From Humibacter ginsenosidimutans (lineage in GTDB: Bacteria; Actinomycetota; Actinomycetes; Actinomycetales; Microbacteriaceae): 64,000 bases of DNA. Shown here in pieces: positions 28,871 through 64,000 of the stretch (position 1 is its first letter; every line of letters starts with the position of its first letter). A program made the position numbers and the translations under genes. Where the stretch lies: contig NZ_CP042305.1 of assembly GCF_007859675.1 (NCBI RefSeq), positions 868,001-932,000 of the forward strand, read 5' to 3'. The notes beneath the pieces were generated by a model. The model made no database searches and was not told the origin of the DNA. It was given only the letters and a program-made list of their open reading frames with translations.

Positions 28871-28879
28871 GCCGCCAGG

Positions 28880-41773: not shown

Positions 41774-41916
41774 GGTTGTCGATCTCTCCTTGCGTGTGTG
41801 TGCGGGAGCTGCTCCCGTCTGTTCAGCCACGAAAGAACCCCGCGACGAGTGAGGCCTGAAGGATTAGGACTCGCCGCGGCGGCTAAGGAGAAGGGAGACG
41901 AACGCCACGATTTCAG

Positions 41917-41977: not shown

Positions 41978-42565
41978 TCACCCCGCGAACGCCACGAGGC
42001 AGAGCGCGGCGAGGCCGGCAATCGTCACGGCGCACGCGCCAGCCAGCCAGGCGAGCGCGACGAAGCCCGTGCGCCGGGACGCGCGGCGCACCGAGGGCAG
42101 GCCCGGGGCATCCGCCCGTGTCGCCCGCTCGCCGCCGACGGCCCCGACCGGCGTGCGCGGCGGAGCAGGAATGGGGCGGGGCCGGTACGCCTGCACCGCG
42201 TCGACTCCGACTCCGGTCGCCGCGTTCGCCGACGGAGCGATTCGGTCGGGCAGCGCCACCCGCATCGCGCGGGTCGCGGCGGCCGCCGTCGACGACCGCG
42301 TCAACGCTTCGGCCGCGGCGCGGCCGGGCCGCACCACCGTCGCGTCGCTCGCCACCCCGCGCACGACTGTCTCGTCACCGAGGTCGGCACGCATCACGGT
42401 CTCGTCGTCCCCCGTGGGGAGCCCGGCCGGAGCAGCGACGCCGGGGCCGGCATCCACCGCGGCCTCGACTGCGTGCTCGGCGCGCGGACGCCGAACGACC
42501 ACGGTGCGGTCGTCGTCGAATCGAGGCACCACGATCGTGTCGTCGACCTCACGGGCCTCGTTCAT
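41978..42565 (-). CDS. Tail-anchored protein with repeated Asp-x-Thr-Val motifs
   Basis: A 195-aa protein of no recognised family, ATG 42565 in an ATGA overlap with the FHA gene. The first 80 residues carry five similar motifs: DDTIVV (Thr10), DRTVVV (Thr21), DETVM (Thr56), DETVV (Thr66) and DATVV (Thr76). The middle is Pro/Ala/Arg-rich and one C-terminal helix (about 172-192) anchors it with a minimal tail. The Thr motifs resemble kinase phospho-acceptor/FHA-docking sites; this is inference. Last gene of the 22-kb locus. Confidence 0.75.
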   Translation of the reverse strand: MNEAREVDDTIVVPRFDDDRTVVVRRPRAEHAVEAAVDAGPGVAAPAGLPTGDDETVMRADLGDETVVRGVASDATVVRPGRAAAEALTRSSTAAAATRAMRVALPDRIAPSANAATGVGVDAVQAYRPRPIPAPPRTPVGAVGGERATRADAPGLPSVRRASRRTGFVALAWLAGACAVTIAGLAALCLVAFAG

Positions 42566-43875
42566 CCGATCACCCGCTTCAACACGACGCCCAGCTCCCC
42601 CAGCAGCACACGTGCGCCCACCCGTGCCGGTGTTCCCGGATCCACGGGATGCTCGACCCCTGCTTCGTCGACGAGCACGGTTCCATTGGTGGAGGCGAGG
42701 TCGGCGACCGTCCATTCGTCGCCGTCGAGCAGAAAGAAGGCGTGCTGCTTCGACAGCGTCTTGGTGTCGTCCTCGAGAGCCAGGTATTGCACGCCGCGCT
42801 CGTCGCCTTCCGGGCGCCGTCCCACGACCACACGGCCGCCAGTGAGCTCGTGCGCGGCACCGAAATCAGTCGTGAGGTGCCACCGCGGCCTGCGCCGGAC
42901 CACGACAATGGTCTCGTCGTCGTCCGGCCGCTCGATCAGCGGCGCGGAACGCGGGATCACCACCGTTCCGGTGTCCGTCGGCGGCTCGGCCGGCACGCTG
43001 AGAGGCGGAGCCGTCCTGGGTGCCGTCTCGTCGAGCTCGTCGGAAGGCTCGACGATCACCGCGGTCGCCGCGGGAGACAGCGGCTTCGGCGCCCACGGCC
43101 GCTGCGCATCGGGTGCCACGGACGTCCACTGCTGCTGCGTCACCGGGGGTCCTGGCGTCCACGGCTGCTGCGGCTCGGGTGGCACCCACGGCCGCAACTC
43201 CGGCTGCTGCGCCTCCGGCGGCTGCCACTGCGGTCGCTGCACCGTCCCCCAGCGATCGGCCGCCGGGCTCCGCCCGTACGCGGGCGTCGTCACCAGCGGC
43301 GGCGGCTCCCAGGCAGGTGCTGGCCGCGGGGATCGGGCCGCGAGCCCGCTCGATGGCGACGGACCGCCCGGTGGGACAGGAGGGGGCTGAGTGCCCTGCA
43401 CGGCAGCCTGCGTCGGGCGAGTGTCGAAGGGTGACTTCGCCACGGCATCCGGTGCGACGGAGTTCGGCGCGAACGACGGCGAGACATCCGTTGAACGACT
43501 CCAGGCCAGAACGCTCGCCCACACCGGCGGGAGGAACACGGCGAGCACCGTCATGCCCGCTCCGCGCGAGAACGCGCGGTTGACCCTGTGCACGGCGAGG
43601 ATCAGCAGGCACACACCGAACAGGTCGGCAAGGGGAACGAAGAGCAGCACGACCAGCCAGGGCGAGATGCGCCCCAGGCGCAGGATCTCCGCGACGTTCA
43701 GCACGGGCACCCACGCCCGCCACCGGTCGACCCCGCTTCTGAAGAACACCCGCGAGAGCGCCGCCGCGAGCCAGACGTAAGAGCCGACAGTGACGACGAG
43801 GGTCACTGCCCCCAGCACGATCGCCGGCATCGCCGACTGCGACACGGCCGCCACAGACTCTGCCACCGCACTCAT
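42562..43875 (-). CDS. Membrane protein with N-terminal helices and C-terminal FHA domain
   Basis: A 437-aa protein. Three to four N-terminal helices (MPAIVLGAVTLVVTVGSYVW, SPWLVVLLFVPLADLFGVC, GAGMTVLAVFLPPVWASVLA) in the first 125 residues resemble DUF5684-type small membrane domains. A ~180-residue Pro/Gln/Trp-rich linker follows, then the FHA domain (about 340-437): VVVGRRPEG, LSKQHAFFLLDG and LASTNGTVLVDE, with the phospho-Thr-binding Arg, Ser and Asn. Just before it are TGTVVIPRS and DDDETIVVVRR, possible phospho-sites. ATGA overlaps on both sides couple it to the transglutaminase-like and motif-repeat genes. Confidence 0.85.
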   Translation of the reverse strand: MSAVAESVAAVSQSAMPAIVLGAVTLVVTVGSYVWLAAALSRVFFRSGVDRWRAWVPVLNVAEILRLGRISPWLVVLLFVPLADLFGVCLLILAVHRVNRAFSRGAGMTVLAVFLPPVWASVLAWSRSTDVSPSFAPNSVAPDAVAKSPFDTRPTQAAVQGTQPPPVPPGGPSPSSGLAARSPRPAPAWEPPPLVTTPAYGRSPAADRWGTVQRPQWQPPEAQQPELRPWVPPEPQQPWTPGPPVTQQQWTSVAPDAQRPWAPKPLSPAATAVIVEPSDELDETAPRTAPPLSVPAEPPTDTGTVVIPRSAPLIERPDDDETIVVVRRRPRWHLTTDFGAAHELTGGRVVVGRRPEGDERGVQYLALEDDTKTLSKQHAFFLLDGDEWTVADLASTNGTVLVDEAGVEHPVDPGTPARVGARVLLGELGVVLKRVIG

Positions 43876-46478
43876 ACCGTGCTGTTCTCCTGTCGTGTCG
43901 TGCGCCGTCGCGGTTCGGGATGCCGGTTCTGCCCAGAGTCGGATTTCCCGCCGCGAGCGTAGCGCGACTCGTCATCTCTCAGCATCTCGATGATCGGCAG
44001 CACCAGGGAGCGCGGCCGCAGCGCCACGACGAACCGCTTCCAGCGACCTTGGGAAGCCGCAACACGCTCCCGCTCCTCCGCCACGAGGTCCCATGCGACG
44101 CGCGCGTCATCGCCCGTCGGCGGATGCTGAGCGAACACCGCTGCATCGACCAGCTCGGCGAGTGAACGGGCCGGCGCGGAGTGGACGGTACGGGCCTGCG
44201 CCACGCGGGTGGCGCCGGTGACGGGGATGCCGGCATCCGCCCACAGGTCTCGTACCTCTGCCCAGGCCCCGACGAGGGCGACCTCTGGCACATTCGCGAA
44301 GCGGCGCCGTCGCCGTCGCGAGCGCTTCAAGGCCAGCAACGTGATGAGCGGGAGCGCGAGGAGCACGAGAAGCGCCAGGCCCTCTCCGACGACGCGCGCC
44401 ACGGCGATCAGCGCCGCCAGCGATTGCGACGACCGGTCGGTGGCCGCCGCCTGGGAGCTCGAGCCGTCGTGCTGGCTCTGCGGGGGCGCCGCGACGCCGG
44501 CGTGCAGCTGCTCCGGCGCCGTCGGGTACTTGGGATATTGCTCGCCGAGCCGCACGAGCACGGGCGAGCTGCGGTACTGGGGCTCCACGTCGAACGTGGT
44601 CCACTGCGATGCGGACGGCGCCTTCACCTGGATCCAGGCGGCCAGGTCGCTGCCCGTGCACTCCGACCGGCAGGCGGGCACGCCGCTGCCGGCCAGAGAC
44701 GTCAGCCGCACGCCGACGACCACGCGCGACTGGTAGCCGTACGCGCGCGCGAGCAGGGCCCCCGCGGCGGCGAACTGCTCGTCGTCGCCGACCCCCGCGA
44801 CGAGCGCGCCTGCCGTGGCGTCGGCGCCGACGACGCGCTGCTGGTCGACGAGCTGCTTGAACAGAGCCTCCACCCGGGCCGTCGAGTGCCCGGCGTAGCT
44901 GGCTTGGAACGAGTACGACGACGACTTCTTCAGCGCGCCCACCCACGAGGATGCCTGGGCATCGTCGTCGACCGAGTGGCTGAGGTATCCCCGAGCCCGA
45001 AGCCTGCCGATCAACGTGGCGAAACCCGCGGCCGTGCGCGGCTGCTTCTGCGCCTTCACCCATGCCGCCAACTGCGGATAGTCGTTCAGGTCGATTCCAC
45101 TTGTTGCGCCGGGCGCGCCGAGCGACGGGTTGCTGTCCGCCGGCACGTCGACCGTGTAGCCATCGCCCGCGACAAGTCCGCGCCCGGTGGCGCCACCGGC
45201 GATCTCGATCGCGGCTCCGCTCGTGCGATCGAGATAGAAGCCCGCCGCCAGTTCCGACGCACGGCTGCCCGAGAACGCGGGAGCCGAGGCGAGCCCCGCC
45301 GGCATCGGGGTCCAGATGCCGAGGTCGTGCTCGATGGAGAACGTCACCCGATGCGCGTTCGACGGCGACGTGCCGCCCGGCAGTCTCGTGAAGCTGACGG
45401 CCTGGCCTCCGGAGCCCTGGGCACCGGAGGCCGGGGCACCGGAGCCGACGGTGAAGACCTGGCCGTCGAAGGCATCCAGCACCGCGAGCGGCACGCGGTC
45501 GATGCCCTTCGTGTCGCCCGAGATGCGGAACAACGGCGTCGAGTAGGCGGACTTCTCGAACGACGCCCGATAGGTCGTGAGCGGGCTGGTCTGAGAGCTG
45601 GCCACGAGCGTGGGCTCCGCTCCGGTGCGCAGCGTGGTGCGCGGCGTCGCCCCGAAGGCGACGGGCACCGCCGCAACGCCCGCGATGAGCGCGACGACGA
45701 CCAGTCCGGCGCCCAGCACACCACGTCGCAGGGCCGCGCCGGCAGAGCCGCGCTGCACGTGCACCGTCGTCGTGGAGCGGGCGAGGGAGAGCGCAGCCCT
45801 GCGCTGCAGCCTGGCGCGCGTGAGGAGCCAGAGCATCGAGACGGCGACGAGCAGCACTCCGAGCAGCACCTCGCGCGGAGCGGTGATCTCGACGCCCGCG
45901 AGCACGACGGACGAGCCGGGATCCGTCGCCGCGAAGGCGATTCCGAAGACCCCGAAGAGCAACACGATGAGCACGGCCCATGCCGCGGAACGCGATGGCG
46001 TCAGCGCGATGCCCACCGCTGCGACGGTGCCGATCAGCGCCATCGCGAAGAACGGCACGAGCACCGCCTGATACGAGCCGACGGGGAGATCGAGCGTGAG
46101 CAGCTGTCGCCAGCCGAGCACGACGCCGACGACTCCGTCGCGAACGCCGCCGAGGATCCCCTGCGGCGACGACAGAGCCGACGGAACGGCCAGCGGCACA
46201 ACGCCGACCAGGTAGACGCCGGCCGTCAGAAGCACGGTGACGAGCACATGCCAGCGGAGGAGGCGCGCCAGCACGGCGATCGCCGCGCCCAGCACGCCGC
46301 ACACGCAGGCGATCACGGCGAGGCGCCACGTGTCGAAGATGGGCCAGGCCATCGCCGTCGCGAGGCCGAGACCGACCAGCACGTAGCCGACCGCCAGCAC
46401 GGCCTGGCCCACGCTCGTGGTCGCGGGCGCGCGGAGCGGGCGACGCCCACGCCCTGTGGATGCGGCCGTCCCGCTCAT
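43872..46478 (-). CDS. Transglutaminase-like membrane protein lacking catalytic Cys/His (module B)
   Basis: An 868-aa protein from ATG 46478. Residues 25-240 hold about seven helices, including AVLAVGYVLVGLGLATAMAW and YQAVLVPFFAMALIGTVAAV. An extracytoplasmic region of ~430 residues contains the transglutaminase-like fold at about 540-640. The Cys position is Asp566 (GVGDDEQFAAAGALLAR) and the His position is Ala613 (SDLAAWIQV); the third-residue block reads TFDVEPQ. A further helix (LALLVLLALPLITLLAL) and an Arg-rich cytoplasmic tail follow. I infer a non-catalytic, structural or binding role. ATGA overlap with DUF58 B and with the FHA gene. Confidence 0.85.
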   Translation of the reverse strand: MSGTAASTGRGRRPLRAPATTSVGQAVLAVGYVLVGLGLATAMAWPIFDTWRLAVIACVCGVLGAAIAVLARLLRWHVLVTVLLTAGVYLVGVVPLAVPSALSSPQGILGGVRDGVVGVVLGWRQLLTLDLPVGSYQAVLVPFFAMALIGTVAAVGIALTPSRSAAWAVLIVLLFGVFGIAFAATDPGSSVVLAGVEITAPREVLLGVLLVAVSMLWLLTRARLQRRAALSLARSTTTVHVQRGSAGAALRRGVLGAGLVVVALIAGVAAVPVAFGATPRTTLRTGAEPTLVASSQTSPLTTYRASFEKSAYSTPLFRISGDTKGIDRVPLAVLDAFDGQVFTVGSGAPASGAQGSGGQAVSFTRLPGGTSPSNAHRVTFSIEHDLGIWTPMPAGLASAPAFSGSRASELAAGFYLDRTSGAAIEIAGGATGRGLVAGDGYTVDVPADSNPSLGAPGATSGIDLNDYPQLAAWVKAQKQPRTAAGFATLIGRLRARGYLSHSVDDDAQASSWVGALKKSSSYSFQASYAGHSTARVEALFKQLVDQQRVVGADATAGALVAGVGDDEQFAAAGALLARAYGYQSRVVVGVRLTSLAGSGVPACRSECTGSDLAAWIQVKAPSASQWTTFDVEPQYRSSPVLVRLGEQYPKYPTAPEQLHAGVAAPPQSQHDGSSSQAAATDRSSQSLAALIAVARVVGEGLALLVLLALPLITLLALKRSRRRRRRFANVPEVALVGAWAEVRDLWADAGIPVTGATRVAQARTVHSAPARSLAELVDAAVFAQHPPTGDDARVAWDLVAEERERVAASQGRWKRFVVALRPRSLVLPIIEMLRDDESRYARGGKSDSGQNRHPEPRRRTTRQENSTV

Positions 46479-47851
46479 TCGAGGGCTCCTCGCGCGATGA
46501 GCTGGCCGAGATCGTCGAGCCGGCCGAGCGTGAGCACGCGCACGTCGCCGACCCTGCGCATCACCGGATCGGCCCCCGGCTCGCAGCGCACGATGACCAC
46601 CGTGCTCTCCGCGTCGAAGAACGAGCCCGCGGTGCGCAGTCGCTGCACGGGCATGACCGATCCGGAGACGAGGAACACCAGCGACAGGCGATCCGCGGTC
46701 TGCGAGACCAGGCGAGCGACATCCTCCAGGCGCGTCATGCGGAGGGAGCGGTCGATCTCCGAGAAGCCGTCGAGCATGGGGCGGATGCCGTGCGTCGGAA
46801 TCTCGCGCACCGCGATGACGTCGCCGCGGCTGAGCTCCGGCTGCTGCGCGCCCGTCGTCACGATGAGCTCTCGACCGTCTCGGACCGCCTGAAGGGAGAG
46901 GGATGCCGCAGCGCTGACCCCGAGCTCGAACTCGTCGTCGGAGGAGTACTCGCCCTCCGCCTCCGTGCCGATGAGCACGGCGATGCGCGACTGCCTGGTC
47001 TCCTCGTACTGCCGCACCATGAGCTTGCCGGTCTTGGCCGTCGACTTCCAGTGCACGTGATTGCGTGCGTCGCCCGGCACGTAGTCGCGGATGGCGTGGA
47101 ACGCGAGATCGGCGTTGACGATGTTGCTGCTCGGCAGCCCCTCGAGATCGTGCAGCAGCCCGGACCCCGTCGACGGGATGTAGGCGGTGACGGGATGCAC
47201 GTGGATGGTCTGGATCTGCGGCCACACCACCTCGCGACGCAGCGCGCCCACCGGGTCGCCCCTGCTCACCGACATGGGCCCGACATCGATGACGCCGCGC
47301 TTCGCCGCGCGGATCGCGATGGTCTCCTCGTGCGTCGCCTGCGGGCGCAGGAACGGCACCCTCGTCTCGACGAGGCCGTCGCCCACCGGGATGTCGACGA
47401 GACCGGGCAATGCGGTGCGCCGTGCTGCATTGACGACCTGCACGGTGCCCGTGACGTCGCTGCCGGCCACCACGGCGTCGCGGTCCACCCGGAACTGCAC
47501 GCGGTACGAGTAGCCGCCGGCGAGGAAGGGGATCGCGGTCAGGAGCAGCACGAGCGAGGCGACGCCGATCATCCATCCGACGCTCCAGCCGAGCACCGCG
47601 CCCGCCGCGATGCCTGCCACGGCGGAGGCCGCGAGCAGCCAGCCGATCGGGGTCACCGTCTCGCCGAGCCAGCCGGCCGCCGCCGCGAGCGCACGCCCGC
47701 CGGTCACGAGCACACGCACCCCGTCACGGCGGGCGGCCGTGCCGCGCGTCGTGCGCGCCATGCTGGTCACCGTCGACGCACGCGTGCGCGTTCCGGTCCC
47801 GGTCGACGTGTACTCCAACCGCGAGTACGCGTCGTGATCACTCGTCGACAT
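46475..47851 (-). CDS. DUF58 protein (module B)
   Basis: A 458-aa protein from ATG 47851 (MSTSDHDAYSRLEYTS). A Thr/Arg-rich N terminus precedes two helices (PIGWLLAASAVAGIAAGAVL, MIGVASLVLLLTAIPFLAGG). A beta domain, then the DUF58 signature IRDYVPGDARNHVHWKSTAK with KLMVRQYEE, and a vWA-like region (SRIAVLIGTEA) follow. Two bp after moxR B and ATGA-coupled to the pseudo-transglutaminase gene. Expected to act with MoxR in assembly of the neighbouring giant protein. Confidence 0.88.
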   Translation of the reverse strand: MSTSDHDAYSRLEYTSTGTGTRTRASTVTSMARTTRGTAARRDGVRVLVTGGRALAAAAGWLGETVTPIGWLLAASAVAGIAAGAVLGWSVGWMIGVASLVLLLTAIPFLAGGYSYRVQFRVDRDAVVAGSDVTGTVQVVNAARRTALPGLVDIPVGDGLVETRVPFLRPQATHEETIAIRAAKRGVIDVGPMSVSRGDPVGALRREVVWPQIQTIHVHPVTAYIPSTGSGLLHDLEGLPSSNIVNADLAFHAIRDYVPGDARNHVHWKSTAKTGKLMVRQYEETRQSRIAVLIGTEAEGEYSSDDEFELGVSAAASLSLQAVRDGRELIVTTGAQQPELSRGDVIAVREIPTHGIRPMLDGFSEIDRSLRMTRLEDVARLVSQTADRLSLVFLVSGSVMPVQRLRTAGSFFDAESTVVIVRCEPGADPVMRRVGDVRVLTLGRLDDLGQLIARGALE

Positions 47852-47853
47852 GC

Positions 47854-48819
47854 TCAGGCCGTGCCGTTCTCCACCGGTACGGCGACGTCGAGCAGGATCT
47901 GCGCGACGACCTCGGGAGCCGTCACGCCGTCGAACTCGGCGTCGGGCTTGAGCACCAGGCGATGCGCGAGCACGGGCGCGGCCAGATCGCGCACGTCGTC
48001 GGGAGTGACATAGGCCCTGCCGCGGCTCGCCGCCCACACCATGCAGATCTTGGCGAGGGACAGAGCACCGCGCACGCTCACGCCGAGCCGCACCTCCTCG
48101 GCACGCCTGGTCGCCGACACCAGCCGCATCAGATAGTCGAGCACGACCGGCCCCGCGTACACACCGGCGGCCAGCTCGGACATGGTCGCCAGGGCGACGG
48201 GATCGATGATGCCCGGCACGGCTGGCTTGACGGCCATGGCCCCTTGGAGGATGCGCAGCATCGAGGCGTCGTCGGGGTAGCCGAGCGAGGTCTTGATCAT
48301 GAACCGGTCGAGCTGGGCCTCGGGCAGGCGATACGTGCCGGCCTGCTCGACGGGGTTCTGGGTGGCCAGCACCGTGAACGGTCTGCCGACCGAGCGCGTG
48401 ATGCCGTCGACGGTGACCTGGCCCTCTTCCATCACCTCGAGCAGTGCCGACTGCGTCTTCGGGCTGGCGCGGTTGATCTCGTCGGCCAGCACCACGTTCG
48501 CGAACACCGGACCGGCGTGGAACTCGAACTCGCCACGCTTCTGGTCGTACACCGAGATGCCCGTGACATCGCCTGGCAGCAGGTCGGGCGTGAACTGGAT
48601 GCGCGTCGTCGTGCCCGCGATCGTCTGCCCGAGCGCGCGGGCGAGCGCCGTCTTGCCCGTGCCGGGAACATCCTCCAGCAGCACGTGGCCGCCGCTGAGC
48701 ATGGCGGCGAGCACCAGCTCGATCACGCGCCGCTTGCCGAGGATGGCCTGCTCGACGTTGTCGGCCAACCGGCCGAACGTGCTCTGGAACCAGTCGACCT
48801 GTTCCGGGGTGATGGTCAT
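47854..48819 (-). CDS. MoxR-family AAA+ ATPase (module B)
   Basis: A 321-aa ATPase: Walker A EDVPGTGKTALARAL (52-59), [15 protein letters not shown], Walker [17 protein letters not shown] (109-115), sensor TVLATQNPVEQAGTY, arginine-finger block LPEAQLDRFMIKTSLGYP and lid VTPDDVRDLAAPVLAHRL. No extended N terminus, unlike module A. Very similar to the module C ATPase, with identical motif spacing, which points to a tandem duplication. 40 bp after the giant protein gene. Confidence 0.93.
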   Translation of the reverse strand: MTITPEQVDWFQSTFGRLADNVEQAILGKRRVIELVLAAMLSGGHVLLEDVPGTGKTALARALGQTIAGTTTRIQFTPDLLPGDVTGISVYDQKRGEFEFHAGPVFANVVLADEINRASPKTQSALLEVMEEGQVTVDGITRSVGRPFTVLATQNPVEQAGTYRLPEAQLDRFMIKTSLGYPDDASMLRILQGAMAVKPAVPGIIDPVALATMSELAAGVYAGPVVLDYLMRLVSATRRAEEVRLGVSVRGALSLAKICMVWAASRGRAYVTPDDVRDLAAPVLAHRLVLKPDAEFDGVTAPEVVAQILLDVAVPVENGTA

Positions 48820-48859
48820 CGGCGTGTCTCCTCGGGAAGAGCGGCGGCGAACCGCGGGG

Positions 48860-51800
48860 TCATGAGCCGTAGGGGCGGGTCAGGGTGACGGTGCCGAACG
48901 CGGAGTACGCGCCGGTGAACGCCAGCGAATAGGTGACGACGTTGGTCGTGGTGTCGACGGTGATGGTGACGGCCACGTCGCCTGACGACCCGGTCAGGCC
49001 GTCACCGCTCGGTGCGTCGACCGATCCGCTGAACTGCAGGTCGCTGACCATGGGAGTGGTCGTCGGCGTCGTCTGCACCGACACCCAGGCCGTCGTCGGC
49101 GCCCCTGTCGGAGCGATCGTCGCGGCGGAGCCGCAGCTGATGCCGTTCCAGCAGTACGCGACGGTGATGGTTCCCGGCGTGCGGTCCGAGGAGAACAGGT
49201 CGCCGAAGCTCTGCGACGTCTGCCCGGTGGCCGCCGCCGTGTACTGCGTGCTGAAACGGCTGTTCGGCGGCCCGGGCACGCTCGGCGACGGCCCGGAGAT
49301 GTCGTTCCACGACAGGGTGGTCGATGTTCCCGTGCTGGACGTCTTCGGTGTGGTGCCCACCGTGTAGGTGTAGCTGCCGGACACACCGGGCGTGCTCGTC
49401 CAGGTGAACACCGAGACGGGGTTGGATGCCGTCGCCTGGTAGCCGTTGGACACGCACGCCATGCCGCGATACGAGGTGAACTGGTCGAGCCCCGTGAAGA
49501 CCGTGCTCGTCTGCGAGGTCGCTCCCCGAATGGTCGGGCTGCCGTCCTGATCCATGGAGCACGTGGGCGTCGAGTCGCCCGACGCCCACACGGCATAGAT
49601 CACCGACAGGGTCTTCGCGCTGTAATTCGCGTTCGGCTGCACACCGTCGAGCTCGACCGACGTGTTGGAGAGTGCGCGAAGGCTCCCGTCTGAGCTGAAG
49701 CCAGGCGCCCCGGCGATCGTGACGGTCGCGCTCATCGCATCGCCGGTCGCCGCGCCGCCCCACGCACCGTTCGGCGGCTGGTAACGACTCACCGGGATGA
49801 CCGTGATGGTCTGGGTGCCGACGGGCAGACCCTGCCATTCGTAGTTGGTGGTGTCACCGCCCTGCAGCTGAACGGTGGTCTGCGCACCGGAGCTGTCGCG
49901 CAGCAGGAACGAGGCGACGCCGCTGCTCTGCCGCGAACGGATCGAGATGGACGCTGTTCCGGTGTTCGCGGTCACCGGGGTGTCGGGCGTCGCCGTCACC
50001 GACGACACGACCGGAGACTCGTACGACCAGGCCACCACGGGTGTCGTGTCGCCCGACTCGCCGATGGCGTTGACGGCCCGTGCAGTGAAGCTGTGCGGCT
50101 GCCCGTTGGTGAGGCCCGACACGGTGCACGAGTAGGCGCCCGGCACGCTCGGCGCGCACTGCGCCGCGACCGGTTTGCCGTCTTCCTCGATGTCCACGCC
50201 GGTGAGCGAGGGATGCGCCGCCGCCGCGCTGCCGAGATCGACCAGGAAGGTGACGCTGCCGGCGGTGTAGGCAGCCGTCGTGATGGAGTTCGGCACGGCG
50301 GGGTAACCCTGCACGTCGAGAGCGAGAGTTCCCTGGCCCTGCCTGCCCTGGGCATCCACCACCGTGTACGGGACCTGGCAGGTGCCGCCCGCCGGCTTCG
50401 CACTTCGGGGCCAGGTGGCGGTGATGGCATTCGTTCCGGAGAGCGAGAGGCTCGCGACGGAGCAGTTGACGTCGCCGATGCCCGCCAGCTTGAGACCGCC
50501 TCCGGGTTTGCCCGCGAACGGGTCGTACTGGCCCGACTGTCCGATGACGGTGATCGTGCAGCTGGGACCGGAGTTCACGCGGCACGTCTGGCTGAACGTC
50601 GCGCCCCTCGGCGTGTCGGGCGCGGCGATGCCGACGACCAGCGAGATCTGCGCGCTCAGCCCGCCGAACGACGACACGGAGACCGCCACCGTGTCGACGG
50701 CGCCGGAGTGCGCGTCCGCTCTGGCCTCGACCGTGAGCGTGCGCCCCTTCTGCGTCACGATGAAGTCGCTGCCAGGCGAGGACACCGTGTAGTCGAGCGA
50801 CGATTGATCGCCGACGCGTCCGCCGTCCCAGCCCGTCATGTCGGAGTAGAGGTCGATGGTCTGGGTCTGGCCGGGCGGCACCGTGCGGCTGAGCGAAGTC
50901 AGGATCGCCTGCGGCGCCTTCGGGCGCACCGTGAACGGGATGGCGAGCGCCGTCCAGTTCTTCTGGCCTGCGACGCGCACCTGCACCGTGCAGGTGTCGC
51001 TCCACGGAGCATCCCTGCCCGCGCTGTAGCCGATGCGGGTGCCGTCGCGCACCTCGCAGCGCGCGTTCGCGCGTTGCACGGGCAGCTCGCTGCCGCTCTT
51101 CAGCTCGAGTCGGTCGCCCTTGGCGACACCGGCCGCCTTCGCAACATCGACGGTGGTGGTCTGCTCCTCGCCGACGTTGTAAGGATCGAGACCGCTCTTC
51201 AACGCCACCGGCATTTCGTCGAACGCCGGGATGCGCAGAAAGCCGTACGCGACGCGCTTGTGGCCGAACACGTCGGTTCCGGTCAGCGAGAACGGAATCA
51301 GGGCACCGTCCGCGGGCAGCGGCCCTGAGATCCGGTTGCCCTTCGCCGTGTACCTGGATGCCGCAGCGCCGACCACGTTCAGCGTCATCGTCGCGGCATC
51401 ACCCGACGGCCAGACCACCTTGCCGCTGACGACGTCGATGCCGGTGGCGAGCCGAAGCCGGTCGGCGAGCGTCACGACGGTATCGGCCACGACGGGGGTC
51501 TCGGGCGCCGCCTGCTCGGTGACGTCGACCACGATGAGGCCCTGGGCTGTCGAGGTGGTCGCGCTCGAGCGCACGGTGTAGATGTACGACTGCACACCCT
51601 GCACGGCACCGGCACGCAACTTGACGATGCCCTTGCTCAGATCGGTCGCAGGGTCGATGAGTGCCTTCAGCCGCGCGTACTCGCCGTCCGACGACTTCTG
51701 CGGCGCGTTCGGCACGAGCGAGACGAGTCGCAGGGTGCCGCCCGCCGGGTCACTGTCGCTGAGCAGCGGCTGCGCGGTGATCGTCTTGGGCGAGCCCACG

Positions 51801-54889: not shown

Positions 54890-54890
54890 C

Positions 54891-56808: not shown

Positions 56809-56812
56809 TATA
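56807..56812 (-). promoter_or_regulatory. Candidate -10 element (TATAGT) at the FHA gene start
   Basis: TATAGT on the minus strand is a near-consensus -10 box, rare in this GC-rich sequence, positioned seven bases before GTG 56799. No good -35 is seen at 16-18 bp. It would give a leaderless transcript and an internal promoter for the kinase-giant protein segment. Confidence 0.35.
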
Positions 56813-56891
56813 CCGACGCCGCTGAACGCCCGGCGCGACGTGCGCGCGGCGCGATGCGGAAGACCGGGTGGTCCGGGTGCTCGGCGTTCGA

Positions 56892-57860
56892 TCAGGCCGC
56901 CCGGTACGTGGGCGGGTTGACCGTCGCGATGGCGCGCGTCACGATGTCTTCCGCGGTGACGCCGGCGAATTCGGCCTCCGGGTCGACGATCACGCGGTGG
57001 GCGAGCACGGGCACGGCGAGCTCGCGCACGTCATCGGGCGTGACGTACGTGCGTCCCGTGCTGATCGCCCAGGTCTTGGCGGCCCGAGCCAACGCCAGAG
57101 CGCCGCGGATGCTCACGCCGAGCGAGGCATCCTTGTCGGCGCGCGTTGCGCTCACGAGTTCGGAGAGGTAACCCATCACCGCGCCGTCGGCGTGCACGTC
57201 GGCGGCCAGCTGCACCATCGTCGTGACCGACTCGGCGGCGATGATGGCCGACACGCTCGCAGCACGTGCGCGGTTCGACGACTCCATCAGCAGCCGCACC
57301 GTTGTCTCGTGATCGGGATAGCCGAGCGAGGTCTTGATCAGGAATCGGTCGAGCTGTGCCTCGGGCAGAGAGTAGGTGCCGGCCTGCTCGACGGGGTTCT
57401 GCGTCGCGATGACGACGAACGGGCTGCCGACGGGGTGCGAGACGCCGTCGACGGTGACGACGCCCTCCTCCATCACCTCGAGCAGGGCCGACTGCGTCTT
57501 CGGCGAGGCGCGGTTGATCTCGTCGGCCAGCACGACCGACGCGAACACCGGGCCGGCGTGGAACTCGAAGCGTCCCGTCGACTGGTCGTAGATGGTGACG
57601 CCGGTCACGTCGGAAGGCAGCAGGTCGGGGGTGAACTGGATGCGCGACTGCGTGCCCTGGATGGTGTTCGCGAGCGCCTTCGCCAATACCGTCTTGCCGG
57701 TGCCAGGCACGTCTTCCAGCAGCACGTGACCACCGGAGAGCAGCGCTGTCACCACCAGCCTGATCGCGTGCTCCTTGCCAAGGATGGCCTTGTCGACGTT
57801 GCCCACGAGCTGTCCGAACGCGCCGGCGAACCAGGTCGCCTGTTCCTGCGTCACTGCCAT
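56892..57860 (-). CDS. MoxR-family AAA+ ATPase (module C)
   Basis: A 322-aa ATPase: Walker [31 protein letters not shown], Walker [51 protein letters not shown] and VTPDDVRELAVPVLAHR. ATG 57860 (MAVTQEQATWFAGAFG). It closely matches the module B ATPase but lies after, not before, its DUF58/transglutaminase-like partners. 182 bp separate it from the upstream transglutaminase-like gene, enough for its own promoter, and 83 bp from the FHA gene. Confidence 0.93.
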   Translation of the reverse strand: MAVTQEQATWFAGAFGQLVGNVDKAILGKEHAIRLVVTALLSGGHVLLEDVPGTGKTVLAKALANTIQGTQSRIQFTPDLLPSDVTGVTIYDQSTGRFEFHAGPVFASVVLADEINRASPKTQSALLEVMEEGVVTVDGVSHPVGSPFVVIATQNPVEQAGTYSLPEAQLDRFLIKTSLGYPDHETTVRLLMESSNRARAASVSAIIAAESVTTMVQLAADVHADGAVMGYLSELVSATRADKDASLGVSIRGALALARAAKTWAISTGRTYVTPDDVRELAVPVLAHRVIVDPEAEFAGVTAEDIVTRAIATVNPPTYRAA

Positions 57861-58042
57861 GATGTCTTCCTTCTCTGTGTTCGACGACGTGCGCTGCGCG
57901 TCATCTGTCCCTGCCTCGGTGCGACGAGCGTGCCTGGGTAGATGGCCACCGTCGAACTCTTCATGCTCGCCGCCGCCACATGGCCGTTGCCACCGCAGTG
58001 GCCCTCCGGCGCCACACCGATCGATTCACTGGACGACATGGC

Positions 58043-60409
58043 CTATCGCCCCGATGCGGGTTGTCCGCCGCGACGGGCGAATCGATACGAGGCGAGCCGC
58101 CGTCGCAGCCATCCCGCCGAGGCCGAGACGGCCTGCAACGTGTGCTCCATCCCTGTCCAGAGACGGTCGCTGCGCTCCTGCGACACCGTGCTGCCGTCGA
58201 AGACCGCGGCATCGGTCTGCACCGCCATCCCCGGCAGCACTCCGTCGTCGAGCTCGATCCCCTGCTCGCGCGATTGTCGCTGCAGGGTGCTCGCGGTCTG
58301 CGACCGTGTCGCGACGGAAGGGATGCTGTAGCCGAGCTCGGCGAAACCGTCGACGAGCTCATCCCACGCACCGGCGGCGCGCCTGTCCTCCGGCCCGGTC
58401 GCGCGCCTGCGCCGTCGTCTGCGCTTGCGCCACGCGACGATGAGCATCGGCAGGAAGACGGCAAGCGCCAGCACGAGTACGACGCCGATCGCGTAGTACG
58501 CCCAGGTCGGGAGCACGAAGGCGTGCTTGCCCGCCGGCGGCTTGCTGTCTTTCGTCTTCACCGGCGTGAGCAGATCGTCCGCCTTCGGTGGCGTGTCAGG
58601 AGGCTGCCGCACTTGCGGCTGCGGCAACAGCTTGGGTCTGACGGTCTGGTCTTTCGGTGCGTCCGTCTTCGTCGGCGTCGGGAAGAACGGCACCCAGCCG
58701 ACGCCCTGGAACGCGACCTCGTCCCACGCCGTGATGTCGTTGCCGGTGAACGTGGTCGTGCCCTTGCCTGCGGCGTGCGACTTGAAGCCCATCACCACGC
58801 GCACCGGGTAGCCGAAATGCCTGGCCATCAGCGCGAAGGCCGTTGCGTACTGCTCCTGGTCGCCCACCATGGGCGTCTTCTGCAGCAGATCGTTCATGCG
58901 ATCGGCGCCCTCGCCGGCGCGTGACGGCACGGGATCGGACGCACGTCCGTGGCTGAGGTAGCCCAGCTTCTTCAACGAGCGCTCGATGTTGCGCAGCTTC
59001 TGGATGGCGCTGCTCGAGCCGCCCGCGTATTGGTTCGCCTTCGTCGCCACCACATCCGGCACGTTGGTCACGCTCGGCATGGTGATCTTCGCCACCGGCA
59101 CGTTCTTCAGCACCTTGTCGCTCGGCACCTTCTGCGCCGTCGCGTCGACGGTGTAGGTGAGGCCGCGGGACACCCCGCTCGTGACCGCGGTCGTGCCCGT
59201 CGCCGCGTTCACGCGCACCGTGTCTCGCGGGTCCGTCGTGCCCGGGTGCGAGTCGAAGTTCAGGGTGTTGACGTAGCCCAGGTTCGGCAGCCACACGTTG
59301 TCGTACCCGAGCACCGTGAACGTCGACGCGCTCGTGGCTCCCGGGGTGAACAGCGAGGGCGAGGGGATGCTGCTGCCCAGCAGCTCGAAGCTGCCCGACC
59401 CGTTGGTCTGCTGATCGGGCCCGGCGACGCTCCAGACGATGCCGTCGTAGCTGTCCATGGTCACCAGGCGCACGAGCGAGCCCTTCGGCAGGTTCGTGGC
59501 CGAGAACAGCTTCGTGGTGCGTAGGTCGCCCGTGTATTTGCGGAACGACGCCAGCGGCGCCGGGTAGTCCAGCGGGTCGAACGGAGGCTGCACGGCGTCG
59601 CGCACCACGAACCTCGAGGCCGCAGACGGTGCCGTCGCCATCCCCAGCGCCGTGCCGCCGACGACGGCGACGAGGGCCACCACAGCAGACCCGGCGATCG
59701 CCTTGCGCGTCAGGCCGCGGTCGACGATCATCGAGCGCTTCGAGCGGCGGATGCGCCAGCCGAGCCAGCACAGCGCGATGACGGCGAAGGCGACGCCGCG
59801 CAGGCCGGCGAGGTAGGCATCCCTTGTGCCCATGAGGATGCTCGCCAGCAGCACCAGCGCCGGCCCGGCCGCGATCACCCCGGCCCGCAGCACGGCACGA
59901 CGCCCGACCGGGGACACGCGCAACGCGACGCTCACGCACGCCAGCGACACCGCCAGCGTCGCGGCGTACGGCACGACGGCGAGGTATGGCGGCGCCTGGA
60001 GCGGTGCGCGAAGGGTCACGGAGTCGGACCAGCCGAACACGACGCCCTTCGCCAGGTCGGCGAGCGACGACAGCGTCGGCAGCACCGAGAAGGCGCCTTC
60101 GCCGGGGAGGGCGACGGCCGTGCCGAAGACGAAGAACGCGACGATGCCGGCCAGCACCGTGACGATGACCGGCAGCCGCACCAGAACACCGAGCGCGGCC
60201 GCTGCCGAGCCGATCACGAGACCGCCGACGGCGGCCACGACGTAGCCGAGTCGTCCGAACGCCGGCGCGAAGCCCATCAGCGCGACCCCCATGAGGGCGG
60301 CGAAGACGGCGAGGTCGACCCACGCCGCCGCCCCGATGCGCTGCACGCCTGCTGTCTCCGCGCGCGTCGTGCGCACGGAGGCTTGCGGTGTCGCGGCCGT
60401 CGCGGTCAT
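58043..60409 (-). CDS. Transglutaminase-like membrane protein lacking catalytic Cys/His (module C)
   Basis: A 788-aa protein from ATG 60409 (MTATAATPQASVRTTR). About seven N-terminal helices up to ~265, for example AAWVDLAVFAALMGVALMGF and LPVIVTVLAGIVAFFVFGTA. The extracytoplasmic transglutaminase-like fold lies at ~490-590. The Cys position is Gln518 (VGDQEQYATAFALMAR) and the His position is Thr560 (NDITAWDEVAF); GWVPFFPTP replaces the acidic third-residue block. A Pro/Lys linker, a C-terminal helix (YYAIGVVLVLALAVFLPML) and an Arg-rich tail follow. Same layout as module B; both appear catalytically dead. ATGA overlap with DUF58 C. Confidence 0.86.
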   Translation of the reverse strand: MTATAATPQASVRTTRAETAGVQRIGAAAWVDLAVFAALMGVALMGFAPAFGRLGYVVAAVGGLVIGSAAAALGVLVRLPVIVTVLAGIVAFFVFGTAVALPGEGAFSVLPTLSSLADLAKGVVFGWSDSVTLRAPLQAPPYLAVVPYAATLAVSLACVSVALRVSPVGRRAVLRAGVIAAGPALVLLASILMGTRDAYLAGLRGVAFAVIALCWLGWRIRRSKRSMIVDRGLTRKAIAGSAVVALVAVVGGTALGMATAPSAASRFVVRDAVQPPFDPLDYPAPLASFRKYTGDLRTTKLFSATNLPKGSLVRLVTMDSYDGIVWSVAGPDQQTNGSGSFELLGSSIPSPSLFTPGATSASTFTVLGYDNVWLPNLGYVNTLNFDSHPGTTDPRDTVRVNAATGTTAVTSGVSRGLTYTVDATAQKVPSDKVLKNVPVAKITMPSVTNVPDVVATKANQYAGGSSSAIQKLRNIERSLKKLGYLSHGRASDPVPSRAGEGADRMNDLLQKTPMVGDQEQYATAFALMARHFGYPVRVVMGFKSHAAGKGTTTFTGNDITAWDEVAFQGVGWVPFFPTPTKTDAPKDQTVRPKLLPQPQVRQPPDTPPKADDLLTPVKTKDSKPPAGKHAFVLPTWAYYAIGVVLVLALAVFLPMLIVAWRKRRRRRRRATGPEDRRAAGAWDELVDGFAELGYSIPSVATRSQTASTLQRQSREQGIELDDGVLPGMAVQTDAAVFDGSTVSQERSDRLWTGMEHTLQAVSASAGWLRRRLASYRFARRGGQPASGR

Positions 60410-61707
60410 CGTCCCGCCTTCTGCAGCAACAGACCCAGCTCGTTCAACCGGGTGACCGTGGCGAGGAAGGCGGTGCCGACCTTGCGCACCGACGGCTCCT
60501 CGTCGATCGCGGCCCGCACGAAGACGACGGGAGTGTCGCTGGGATACAGCATCGACATCGCGTGCAGCTCCTGGTGCGATGCACCGCTGCCGACGACCGC
60601 CACCACGAGGCTGGGAACAGCGAGACGGGCGCCGACCGTCCTGGCGAACTCGCGCAGTGACTCGTATCGCGACTCGATCCGCTCGATGCGGCAGGTGTCG
60701 TCGAGCAGGGTCATCGGGGTGCGCGACCGCAGGGCGGCCTTCTCCCACAGCACATCGAGCTCGGACTCCTCGGAGATCACCTGGATCGCGACCGAGGCGA
60801 GTGCGGAGACCGCCAGCTCGAACTCGTCGTCTGAGGCGTAGAAACGCCGGTCGGCGCTCATCAGCAGCAGCAGCTGGGACCGCCTGGTCTCCTGGTACTG
60901 CCGCACCATGAGCTGTCCTGTGCGCGCCGTGCTGCGCCAGTGCACATTGCGGATGTCGTCGCCCGGTTCGTATGCCCGCAGTGCGTGGAAGGCGAGGTCG
61001 CTGTCCGTGATCACCGACGTGGTCTGGCCCTCGAGGTCGCGCACGAGACCGCGCGCCGTCGCCGCGATGCGCGCCACCCTCGGATGCACGAAGAGCTCGA
61101 CCTGATCGCTCCATCGCGTCGTGCGCCGCAACAGCCCCAACTGGTCGCCGCGCACGCTGATCGCCGGACCGGCGACGATCAGCGCCCGCTTGTGCGTCGG
61201 GATCGCGAAGAGGTTCTCCTCCTCCGCCGCGGGGGCGAGCCTGGGCACGACGAATTCCGCCAGACCCTCGCCCACGGGCAGTTCCATGCGGGTGGGGAGC
61301 ACGGAACGCTGGCCGATGTTGGCGACGACCATGTTGCCCATGGCGCGATCACCGGCGGTGACACGGCGCGGCGTGAGTTCGATGGCGACCCGGTACGTGG
61401 CGCGACCGAACAGGTAGGCGCAGGCGGCGAGCATCCCGAGCGTCAGCGTGAAGCCGAGATAGGCGAACTCCGCCCATCCCAGCACGAACGCCAGAACGAA
61501 GGACACGAGCGCCGAGACGAGCACGATCCAGCCGAAGGTCGTGACCACCCCTGCGGCGCGCGCGACGGCCAGCAGCGGCCTGTCGATCACGCGTCGACCT
61601 GCCCGGATCAGCGCGGCCAGGCCGTCCGAGAGCGCGCGCAACAGCTCGCGCAGGGCGAAGGATGCCTGCGAACGGCGCGGCGCGCCGGTGCCGGTCGTCT
61701 CCGTCAT
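60406..61707 (-). CDS. DUF58 protein (module C)
   Basis: A 433-aa protein from ATG 61707. N-terminal amphipathic/basic segment, two helices (VTTFGWIVLVSALVSFVLAF, FAYLGFTLTLGMLAACAYLF), beta-rich middle, and the DUF58 signature LRAYEPGDDIRNVHWRSTAR with QLMVRQYQETRRS. The vWA-like half includes QLLLLMSADRRF. Closely parallels module B in length and motif order. 76 bp after the giant Fn3 protein gene and ATGA-coupled to the pseudo-transglutaminase gene. Confidence 0.88.
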   Translation of the reverse strand: MTETTGTGAPRRSQASFALRELLRALSDGLAALIRAGRRVIDRPLLAVARAAGVVTTFGWIVLVSALVSFVLAFVLGWAEFAYLGFTLTLGMLAACAYLFGRATYRVAIELTPRRVTAGDRAMGNMVVANIGQRSVLPTRMELPVGEGLAEFVVPRLAPAAEEENLFAIPTHKRALIVAGPAISVRGDQLGLLRRTTRWSDQVELFVHPRVARIAATARGLVRDLEGQTTSVITDSDLAFHALRAYEPGDDIRNVHWRSTARTGQLMVRQYQETRRSQLLLLMSADRRFYASDDEFELAVSALASVAIQVISEESELDVLWEKAALRSRTPMTLLDDTCRIERIESRYESLREFARTVGARLAVPSLVVAVVGSGASHQELHAMSMLYPSDTPVVFVRAAIDEEPSVRKVGTAFLATVTRLNELGLLLQKAGR

Positions 61708-61783
61708 GCGGCCTCGTTCGTCAGGGGGGTCATGGATGTCTTCTCACGCTCTGCTGGGTCGGTCTCGCCACGGTTCGTCACGG

Positions 61784-64000
61784 TCAGAAATGCACCGTCG
61801 CGCTTTGCACCCCGCCGATGATGATGTAGCCCGTCGCGTAGGTGCCGCAGTTCGGCTTGCGCGTCGTGTAGTAGGAGCTCGTGTCGATGTTGCCGCTTCC
61901 GTCGGCCGTCACCACGGGGCTGCTGAGCTGCGAGCCCGAGCAGTAGACCTGCACGGTGTACTGCTGCCCGGGGGTGAAGTGCTGGCCCTTGAGCAGGAAA
62001 TAGTGGCAGGTTCCGCCGTCGGACTGGCAGGTGACCTCGTGAGCGGAGTCCGGTCCGGTCTGCACCGCCGGCGAAGGAGGAGGCGTCGGGTCGATCGTGC
62101 CGTGACCCGTGGCCGAGTCTCCGTCGCCTCCTCCGCCATCGTTGGAGGCGTGCACCGTGAACGAATAGTTGCCGTCGCTCACCGACTTCGTCGTCACCGA
62201 GGTGCTCTTCGTCGTGCCCGAGCCGCCACCGCTGAACGACCAGTGGTAGGTCACGCTGCCGCCACCCGTGTTGGTGACGGCCGGCCAGCTCACGTCGAAC
62301 GTGTTCGGAGCCGTGCCGTTGGCGTGCATCGTGACGCTCTGCACGGCGCTCGGCTTTCCGTACGGGGTGACGGCGGCCGAGGCCGCTGACAGGGTGCTCC
62401 AGCCGTCGGCGTTGTGCGCCTTGACCTTGAACGTGTAGGTCGTGCCGTTGGTCAGCTTGGTGATCGTGTTCGAGCCGACCTGCGCCGGGTAGGTTCCGCC
62501 GTGGTTGTCGTCGATCTCGTACTTGTCGATGGGCTTTCCGTTGTCGGCGGGTGCCTTGATGACCATGCTCGCCTGCCCGCTGCTGGCCTTCACGCTGCTC
62601 GGCGGGTCCATCTGCGCTGGGACGTCGTGGATGATCACCTGGTACTGGCCGATCGTGGCCTTGGTACGCGCCGGGTCCTTGGTGGCGTCTTCGACGTTGA
62701 ATTGGATGTTGATCGTGCCGATCGCCGCGCCGCTGCCCACGCTCACGTTGATCGACGTGTCGGTGTACGTGACATCCACCCCGCTCGGTGCTGACACGGC
62801 TTTGGCGCTCATGATGCGCAGCGGGTGCCCGGGGAACGGGTTCACCCAGGTGGAGTCGCTCGCGGCCTCCGTCCAGTCGAAGCTCTGGCCGCGCTGGATC
62901 TCGTGCGTGTACGGCGGGTTCTTCTGCTGCGCGAGCGGCTTGGTCGAGCTGACCACCTTGACGTTCACCGATCCGTCGATCGAGGTGGTCGGCGAGTTCA
63001 CCTTGAAGTGGATGACCGCTGTGGTCCCCGGCTGCACCCCGAACGGTGCGGACAGTGACAGCGTCGACCCGCTCGGCGCGGCCACGATGCCTCCCGATGC
63101 GCCGCTGAAGTCGGTGTAGGTCAGCTTGGCGAGAATGGCGGGGTTCGGGTGATGGCTCGACGCGCGGAGGTCGACGACGGTGGCCTGCTCCCCCGCCTGG
63201 ATCTGCACGTTCGGCGGGGTGAAGGTGGGGGCGACGTCGGACTGGTCGGGGTTGCCGACGGTGATCGGCAGCACGAGTGACGTGATGCGGTCGTGGCCGG
63301 CACCGGGCTCGCGTCCGTCGTTCACCTTGAACGTGATCGCTGCGGGACCTCGATAGTCCTTCTCGGCGGTGAACTGGAGCGTCTGGCCGTCGACATAGCC
63401 GCCCACCGTCGAGTGCGTCACCGAGACGCCGCTCGCGCCCGTGATCTTCGCCGGGCGCCCGGAGGGCACGCTGATGATGTCGGAGAGCTTCCACGACTTC
63501 GTGCCGTTCATCGACACGATCTGCTGCGGCACCTTCACCACGGGGGGCGGCGTTCCGTCGGATGCCGGCGGCACGATGATGAAGGCCTCGCCGGCCAATC
63601 CCGTCGTCGGGTCGGTCAGCGTGTACGCGACGGCGATGCGTTCGTGCTGCGGCCTGACCGTCACGACGCCGTCCTGACCGACCGTGGCGTACTTCGCGTT
63701 CGGCCCGGTGAGCCCGACCACAAGCTTGTTCACGAGGTCGGACGGGTTCACGGCGTCCTGGTAGACGTTGACCTTGGCGGTCTTCTTGCCCGCCGTCTGG
63801 TCGGACTGCAACACCTGGTCGACCGCCGTCGGATACACCGGTTTGGCGTCCTTCGTCACGATCACCTGCACGTAGGCGCTGTCCTGGCCGCCCTGTCCGT
63901 TGGTGATCGTGTAGCGCAGCGAATAGACGCCCTCCTTCTGCGGCGCCTGCACGAGCACGATCTGGCCGTGAACGGATGCCTTGAGCGCAGGATCCACATC
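61784..64000 (-). CDS. Giant exported Ig/Fn3 repeat protein, C-terminal part (cut by window edge; module C)
   Basis: At least 738 residues; the 5' end lies beyond base 64000. Successive Ig/cadherin-like units (for example VYSLRYTITNGQGGQDSAYV and ITFKVNDGREPGAGHDR), then a clear Fn3 domain from PPSSVKASSGQASMVIKAPA to FKVKAHNADGWSTLSAAS. A second Fn3-like unit (FDVSWPAVTNTGGGSVTYHW) and a short Cys-containing C-terminal domain (CQSDGGTCHYFLLKG, PNCGTYATGYIIIGG) follow. No LPxTG or final helix, as in the module B protein, so anchoring is probably N-terminal. First visible gene of module C. Confidence 0.87.
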   Translation of the reverse strand, partial: DVDPALKASVHGQIVLVQAPQKEGVYSLRYTITNGQGGQDSAYVQVIVTKDAKPVYPTAVDQVLQSDQTAGKKTAKVNVYQDAVNPSDLVNKLVVGLTGPNAKYATVGQDGVVTVRPQHERIAVAYTLTDPTTGLAGEAFIIVPPASDGTPPPVVKVPQQIVSMNGTKSWKLSDIISVPSGRPAKITGASGVSVTHSTVGGYVDGQTLQFTAEKDYRGPAAITFKVNDGREPGAGHDRITSLVLPITVGNPDQSDVAPTFTPPNVQIQAGEQATVVDLRASSHHPNPAILAKLTYTDFSGASGGIVAAPSGSTLSLSAPFGVQPGTTAVIHFKVNSPTTSIDGSVNVKVVSSTKPLAQQKNPPYTHEIQRGQSFDWTEAASDSTWVNPFPGHPLRIMSAKAVSAPSGVDVTYTDTSINVSVGSGAAIGTINIQFNVEDATKDPARTKATIGQYQVIIHDVPAQMDPPSSVKASSGQASMVIKAPADNGKPIDKYEIDDNHGGTYPAQVGSNTITKLTNGTTYTFKVKAHNADGWSTLSAASAAVTPYGKPSAVQSVTMHANGTAPNTFDVSWPAVTNTGGGSVTYHWSFSGGGSGTTKSTSVTTKSVSDGNYSFTVHASNDGGGGDGDSATGHGTIDPTPPPSPAVQTGPDSAHEVTCQSDGGTCHYFLLKGQHFTPGQQYTVQVYCSGSQLSSPVVTADGSGNIDTSSYYTTRKPNCGTYATGYIIIGGVQSATVHF

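Follow-up and report, generated by a model that had tools for sequence, protein, structure and literature searches.

Organization of the locus

The stretch of DNA analysed here (the window, 64,000 nucleotides) comprises bases 868001-932000 of the single-contig 4.18-Mb genome of Humibacter ginsenosidimutans (NZ_CP042305.1). It carries on the minus strand two adjacent gene modules, A and B, each encoding a giant surface protein (GIANT), a MoxR ATPase (MOXR), a DUF58 protein, a transglutaminase-like protein (TG) and a Ser/Thr kinase (KIN). By their sequences these modules are of the type of the PFNA operon of Bifidobacterium, and what is new, as far as sequence comparison tells, is that the PFNA-type system is much wider than published, includes a dead enzyme and has undergone cassette shuffling at this locus.

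The original prediction, made from the letters of the DNA, described twelve consecutive minus-strand genes at 41978-64000, and open reading frames (ORFs) and Pfam confirm all twelve, from THR to most of GIANT1. The end of the window cuts module A, whose genes go on to about 71895 in window numbering. In the order of transcription, module A consists of nine genes (PP2C, FHA1, KIN1, FHA-HTH, GIANT1, DUF58_1, TG1, MOXR1 and FHAx) and module B of seven (KIN2, GIANT2, MOXR2, DUF58_2, TG2, FHA2 and THR), with leuC next. The features are as follows.

71895-71080, minus strand: PP2C phosphatase, module A, beyond the window
About 71045-69602, minus strand: FHA1, module A, third FHA protein, frame broken
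About 69600-67877, minus strand: KIN1, module A, second kinase, frame broken near its start
67880-67182, minus strand: FHA-HTH, module A
61784-64000, minus strand: C-terminal part of GIANT1, module A; the full gene extends to 67057 (1757 aa)
60406-61707, minus strand: DUF58_1, module A, 433 aa, with a hydrophobic segment (Pfam)
58043-60409, minus strand: TG1, module A, TgpA-like membrane protein of transglutaminase fold; Gln518 at the Cys position, catalytic His also gone
56892-57860, minus strand: MOXR1, module A, AAA+ ATPase, displaced behind TG1 (Pfam)
56317-56808, minus strand: FHAx, FHA-domain protein, last gene of module A (Pfam)
54890-56034, minus strand: KIN2, module B, Ser/Thr kinase, transmembrane (TM) segment in a second frame
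48860-54889, minus strand: GIANT2, module B, 2009 aa, N-terminal TM segment, predicted propeller, Big_9
47854-48819, minus strand: MOXR2, module B (Pfam)
46475-47851, minus strand: DUF58_2, module B (Pfam)
43872-46478, minus strand: TG2, module B, pseudo-transglutaminase, Asp566 at the Cys position
42562-43875, minus strand: FHA2, module B, DUF5684 membrane domain and FHA, Thr motifs in the linker
41978-42565, minus strand: THR, module B, 195 aa, five Thr motifs, C-terminal TM segment
41940-56316, minus strand: module B as a whole, about 14.4 kb
25204-29911, minus strand: canonical MoxR-DUF58-TG cluster, a control outside the system; its TG has Cys499, His and Glu

Pfam matches over the cut-off are AAA_3 (208 bits in both MoxRs), DUF58, Transglut_core and FHA. 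The genes had been described as mostly coupled, which holds for module B but not for the part of module A in the window: six of the eleven junctions within 41978-64000 are tight (an overlap or a gap of at most 2 bases), and the other five gaps measure 40, 76, 83, 182 and 282 bases. The KIN2/GIANT2 junction is tight only when KIN2, whose frame is lost at a C5 run near 54983 directly before the TM segment, is read in its second frame. KIN1 and FHA1 are broken at C6 runs (69580 and 70484 in window numbering), and since two congeners have longer open frames in both regions, the poly-C frame breaks of the three genes are likely a sequencing error or recent decay; for KIN2 there is no congener counterpart for comparison. 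A promoter scan of 45000-64000 found no sigma-70-like site, and terminator-like sites there number 5 against 3.5 in shuffles, both results being uninformative at such GC content.

Relation to the PFNA operon

The original prediction knew of no system combining all these genes, but the set is that of the PFNA operon, which the accessible parts of the reports give as pkb2-fn3-aaa-atp-duf58-tgm, with prpC and fha as accessories only in certain species (PMC8430577, PMC6803598; these and the other articles cited below were available in part). For B. longum, and as far as can be told for that species only, it is reported that the genes are co-transcribed, that Pkb2 phosphorylates the MoxR protein and that an FN3 fragment binds TNF-alpha (PMC8430577, PMC6803598). 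A further account sets the operon beside the mycobacterial moxR operon and calls DUF58 functionally unidentified (PMC12067865). Homologs of all five core genes lie on one strand in both modules. Module B has the identical gene order, whereas in module A MOXR1 stands behind TG1; we call module A a derived variant because congeners with a single A module keep the usual order and congener G739 is a possible intermediate. The accessories are likewise present, PP2C and FHA in module A, FHA in module B. The modules differ from the published operon in that two lie side by side with a third elsewhere in the genome, in the additional FHA-HTH gene of A and THR gene of B, and in their host, which is not a bifidobacterium.

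The PFNA operon was said in 2023 to be confined to bifidobacteria (PMC10688814, in the part available), and no title or abstract opening that we found places it elsewhere, subscription journals being mostly beyond reach. This statement fails, although the kinship stands. A search with DUF58_2 (E<1e-40) gave matches in 52 of 60 genomes of the family, own genome included, with two or more matches in 26 genomes, a few of which may be one split gene. A DUF58 profile of 15 rows (E<=1e-45) matched 182 of the 297 genomes sampled in the order, which belong to 55 of the 95 genera covered; in a phylum sample the same threshold gave 17 of 396 genomes. The order and phylum searches scored four to five candidates per genome, so that copy numbers are lower bounds. 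A DUF58 match alone is not a module, and the module counts come from fetched loci.

Sixty loci picked by DUF58 were chosen by hand for score and spread, the family search giving 20 of its 81 matches (E<1e-40), and GIANT-MOXR-DUF58-TG is contiguous in 56 of them; three of the four exceptions (L127, L145 and L146) score weakly for DUF58 (E>1e-65), which is also true of 9 of the 182 genomes. Together with the window's own locus (L008) and 80 named loci found through the TG, which are among the matches listed and were found with a peptide pattern already without the Cys, 141 loci were compared. The order is contiguous in 130 of these, and the kinase, or the kinase and FHA-HTH, lies directly upstream of the cassette in 116; six of the eleven loci without contiguous order end at contig boundaries. 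Conservation of the giant with its trio as a unit is far beyond chance. The view of the original prediction that each giant travels with its own MoxR, DUF58 and TG, accompanied by kinase and FHA genes, is borne out by this order and by module clades that the genes mostly share.

The family labelled f77 in our sample is Bifidobacteriaceae, as a phosphoketolase is encoded in all four f77 genomes tested, and that of genome G596 matches PDB entries 8io6 and 3ai7 along its full length, differing at few positions; 3AI7 is the phosphoketolase of B. longum (PMC5315409). Profiles built from the window's protein families recover all five core proteins (kinase, giant, MoxR, DUF58 and TG) in each of the 11 f77 loci fetched. 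Module membership and spread of the PFNA type are well supported.

Named carriers, among the matches listed, include Leifsonia, Microbacterium, Agromyces, Demequina, Cellulomonas, Leucobacter, Cryobacterium, Salinibacterium and others. Leifsonia, Agromyces, Demequina, Cellulomonas, Cryobacterium and the like are found mainly in soil, water or ice or on plants; some of the named carrier strains are host-associated.

A system treated so far as a bifidobacterial host-communication operon is thus placed on a wider base that includes many non-gut bacteria. The explanation in terms of species-specific host communication, in which the kinase and the Fn3 protein would perceive immune cues such as TNF-alpha and the TG would be catalytically active as a transglutaminase or cysteine protease, draws on the in vitro binding of TNF-alpha by the B. 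longum FN3 fragment, on induction of the operon by TNF-alpha (PMC8430577, PMC10688814) and on reported positive selection (PMC6803598). A role in host immunity alone is made less likely by the many non-gut relatives that carry this gene set: its DUF58 type occurs in more than half of the order's genomes sampled, and named strains of Leifsonia, Agromyces, Demequina, Cellulomonas, Cryobacterium and other genera have the module. Moreover, the catalytic Cys is replaced by Ser in the TGs of all 11 Bifidobacteriaceae loci, and the part of the kinase beyond the TM segment is shorter than 25 residues in 85 of 122 kinases. As a general account, host communication is in our view quite improbable; it could still be how bifidobacteria have adapted an older machine.

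The pseudo-transglutaminase

The catalytic Cys occurs in none of 62 PFNA-type TGs, namely those of the 60 loci picked by DUF58 and of the window's modules A and B, which were chosen without regard to the TG; the 80 named loci were kept out because the pattern that found them already lacks the Cys. Its position is taken by Asp (27), Ser (12), Ala (10), Gln (6), Glu (4), Pro (2) or Gly (1). The catalytic His is kept in 10 of the 62, and Asp or Glu occupies the third position in 37. The Cys is missing also from the whole alignment of 144 rows, in which own A counts twice, one row has a gap and the 80 loci found by pattern take part; Glu-Gln follows the lost position in nearly all. The triad Cys-His-Asp/Glu of an active transglutaminase or cysteine protease is therefore not present in the PFNA-type TG.

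The canonical MoxR-DUF58-transglutaminase clusters of the MoxR Proper subfamily contain a homologous trio, and their TGs differ in this very respect: Cys, His and Glu are present in 29 of 29 relatives (the best-scoring copies among 43 genomes with a match, own copy not counted). The window's own canonical TG is likewise intact and lies 12 kb from module B; between that cluster and module B no giant, kinase or FHA gene occurs among ORFs of at least 250 aa on that side.

In the model of TG2 (pLDDT 84.4, from 47 rows) helices form a membrane part at the N terminus, which is followed by an extracytoplasmic domain, a long helix and a helical tail. The nearest solved fold of the extracytoplasmic domain is the periplasmic domain of TgpA from Pseudomonas aeruginosa (PDB 6g49, 6g4h), with E 1.4e-6 for the model and E 7.5e-8 by profile, but the PFNA-type TG has lost the catalytic residues. 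By these residues it is a conserved pseudoenzyme and no ordinary transglutaminase. The term pseudo-transglutaminase had been rightly predicted for both TG1 and TG2, and in the available parts of the published accounts the TG is called an enzyme, whereas here the Cys is absent, Bifidobacterium included.

The giant surface proteins

Both giants had been predicted as Ig/Fn3 proteins. Pfam finds seven Big_9 stretches in GIANT1 and four in GIANT2, and this part of the prediction stands for both; Fn3 exceeds the cut-off once, in GIANT1, but not in GIANT2, which has no whole-protein match at E 0.01 and a C-terminal fragment scoring 24.9 bits against a cut-off of 25. The tandem-95 repeat of NCBIfam is matched by GIANT1 (118 bits, cut-off 90) and falls below the cut-off in GIANT2 (64 bits); the same scan gave no match for TG, DUF58, THR or FHA-HTH.

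An N-terminal TM segment is found in 119 of 130 giants and a C-terminal one in none. Residues of about 43-398 of GIANT2 form a predicted beta-propeller (pLDDT 86.6), and GIANT1 has an N-terminal TM segment and a propeller-like domain assigned by homology to GIANT2. The profile of the giant's propeller finds designed Pizza propellers at E 5e-11 and the PknD chain 1rwi at E 3.7e-4. The constant part of the giant is thus predicted, from these models, to be a membrane-anchored beta-propeller, and attention shifts to this neglected part of the protein, the membrane anchor and the propeller. PknD, a receptor kinase, carries its kinase and its extracellular propeller in one chain, whereas here they are on separate proteins, KIN2 stopping at its TM segment and the propeller residing in the giant.

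Sortase anchoring of the giants was considered and rejected, as an LPxTG-like motif occurs within the last 80 residues of only 10 of 130. In one locus (L018, genome G053) two giants in a row are followed by one MoxR-DUF58-TG set.

MoxR, DUF58 and the signalling proteins

The MoxR P-loop PGxGK[TS] is kept in 139 of 140 proteins, and DFG follows the HRD-type motif in 121 of 122 kinases, all 122 of which were selected by the HRD-type motif. Neither DUF58_1 nor DUF58_2 shows a further Pfam domain, and comparison of the DUF58 sequence with solved structures gave nothing meaningful. DUF58 is described as vWA-like (PMC12067865, in the part available).

Such a pairing of MoxR with a vWA-like partner, together with a propeller, resembles the MoxR-vWA ternary conflict systems (PMC7159879), and both MoxRs exceed the Pfam bpMoxR cut-off of 27 (39 and 40 bits). 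However, AAA_3 scores far higher, and the propeller here is not fused to the vWA-like protein and the P-loop GXXXTAKS is absent, both being marks of those systems according to the available part of that report (PMC7159879). No effector domain was found by Pfam, and PADLOC shows only generic kinase, AAA+ and phosphatase similarity. A role in biological conflict or defence is accordingly very improbable.

A phospho-Thr-like motif, D or E shortly before T-[V/I]-[V/M], occurs 35 times in FHA linkers against 0.9 in shuffles (counted in 111 of 136 FHA proteins, those with a placeable FHA fold), and 26 times in kinase linkers and tails against 3.2; in the folded kinase and FHA domains there is no excess. 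An Fn3 match in the KIN1 ectodomain is weak (E 0.0067) and below the cut-off.

FHA-HTH has no Pfam match over the cut-off and is missing the usual FHA core; its FHA-like label comes from reading the sequence, and a match to HTH_8 is weak (E 0.049). A phospho-regulated transcription factor is a possible function. The gene (L008:13182-13880) is unusually conserved, with 89% in congeners and 70% in another genus, and stands beside the kinase in loci of several families.

History of the modules

In a combined tree of MoxR and DUF58 (63 rows, quick method with no mixture model), module A groups with L026, L018 and L028, and module B with L010, L012, L014, L015, L019 and L112, the last from another family. 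A third own module, C (L009; genome positions 4158309-4178100, near the contig end), with the order FHA-PP2C-kinase-giant-MoxR-DUF58-TG-FHA, groups with L025, L011, L013, L016, L024 and L027. In single-gene trees B and the f77 group are clades in five of five, and C in four of five, the support in the TG tree being weak (0.39). A is a clade too once a cut row is left out of the giant tree, and the kinase tree had only two A rows. The giant tree was made without L026 (cut at the contig start), L127 and L146, and C still includes L021 there. As the module clades recur in the combined tree and in most single-gene trees, A and B are, on this phylogenetic evidence, old module types inherited separately.

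Module B is absent between FHAx and leuC in the congeners G057, G739, G740 and G741 and in the relative L028 (another genus, f1/g7). In G057, DNA matching 56329 (the end of FHAx) is followed 82 bases on by DNA matching 41936 (before leuC), and module A adjoins leuC also in L028, G739, G740 and G741. A B-type DUF58 was found in none of the four congeners, where the best identity is 40% against 50-52% in the nearest B-type relatives; the assembly of G741 is 87% complete. A search for signs of insertion of B by a mobile element found that the sequences around the two junctions share words of at most 8 bases. An origin of B by tandem duplication of A was rejected, since A and B fall into separate starred clades.

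The original prediction took A and B for one integrated 22-kb system assembling two fibres under shared signalling. The modules do stand head-to-tail on one strand, cross-talk through FHAx and THR is conceivable, and two congeners likewise hold two cassettes here. Yet B-type modules are missing from the four congeners, those fetched from other genera came without an A module in the same 20 kb, B comes with a kinase of its own and a 282-base gap precedes KIN2, and C lies elsewhere in the genome. The integrated model is therefore improbable, and two old, separate module types replace it.

In G740 (C1:801000-831200) the GIANT-MOXR-DUF58-TG cassette occurs twice behind one PP2C-FHA-KIN-FHAHTH set and is followed by FHAx and leuC. 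G739 (C11:708000-737600) has the same doubled layout with the first MoxR missing (the doubled loci are L187-L190), G741 a single cassette in the usual order, and G057 the usual order of module A from its contig end on. By these gene orders the cassette is an evolutionary unit that can double behind one regulator set. The two giants of G739 with their one MoxR suggest that MoxR can be shared, DUF58 and TG being giant-specific.

MOXR1 is nearest to the MoxR of G739 (85% DNA identity, others 76-84%), and DUF58_1 and TG1 resemble the first cassette of the doubled congeners. Given this identity and the gene order of G739 and G740, the displaced MOXR1 may be a remnant of a collapsed second cassette. 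Speaking against this, the second MoxR of G740 is 79% identical to MOXR1 and the first 83%, and the 182-base spacer before MOXR1 gives only chance-level matches, with no remnant of lost genes.

Proposed mechanism

We consider it somewhat probable, from sequences and models, that the kinase, FHA proteins and phosphatase gate the remodelling, by MoxR and DUF58, of a membrane complex in which the giant is held by the dead TG domain. The giant would stay in the membrane through its N-terminal segment with the propeller close to the membrane, and its Ig/Fn3 repeats would point outward as an adhesive or sensory rod. Each private trio of MoxR, DUF58 and TG would work, much as chaperones do, on its own giant. 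The multi-pass TG, with its extracytoplasmic, catalytically dead fold, would bind and not cross-link; MoxR, whose ATPase motifs are intact, and the membrane-tethered DUF58 would remodel the complex from the cytoplasm and in this way set the fate of the giant, be it assembly, release or retention. This remodelling would be switched by the membrane kinase, by PP2C and by the FHA proteins through phospho-Thr on the linkers of kinase, FHA and THR proteins. Surface fibres under kinase control are thus a proposal, and the link from kinase to MoxR is experimentally backed only in B. longum, in the accessible part of that work (PMC8430577).

Several observations weigh against this mechanism. The metal-site Asp of DUF58 is kept in only 61 of 143 proteins, so that a common MIDAS-type peptide grip is unsupported. 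The excess of Thr motifs is confined to 31 of 111 FHA and 21 of 122 kinase linkers, and these related sequences are non-independent. THR homologs (E<=0.01) are few, in 4 of 59 genomes, own genome included, and among the three others only G025 (E 7e-5) has one in a B module. Module B here has FHA but no PP2C. Finally, MoxR-DUF58-TG occurs with no giant at the threshold in the distant loci L127, L145 and L146, and with a weak giant in L128, so that the trio can exist without the giant.

The last point, together with the canonical trio in the same genome, favours the alternative that the trio does general envelope work, such as assembly of peptidoglycan or membrane complexes, the giant being only a neighbour or a structural tether. 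This we regard as rather unlikely, as the giant adjoins the trio in nearly all loci compared, follows the same module clades and is doubled with it as a whole cassette. The role of MoxR-DUF58-TG clusters becomes testable here, since the gene for the giant, their likely client, adjoins them and natural multi-copy cases exist (G739, G740 and the own genome).

A more daring version of the mechanism is a split receptor with a pseudoenzyme clamp: the kinase would have given its sensor propeller to the giant rod, the dead TG would clamp the propeller across the membrane, and MoxR-DUF58 with kinase and FHA proteins would read and reset the rod. In that case the arrangement would extend across much of the order, and paralogous cassettes would amount to several independently switched rods per cell. 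This split-receptor and clamp reading is speculative and rather unlikely.

Downstream of module B, just upstream of leuC, a short frame at 41826-41920 contains three consecutive Leu codons and looks, from its sequence, like a leucine leader or attenuator; similar frames are found in L026 and L028.

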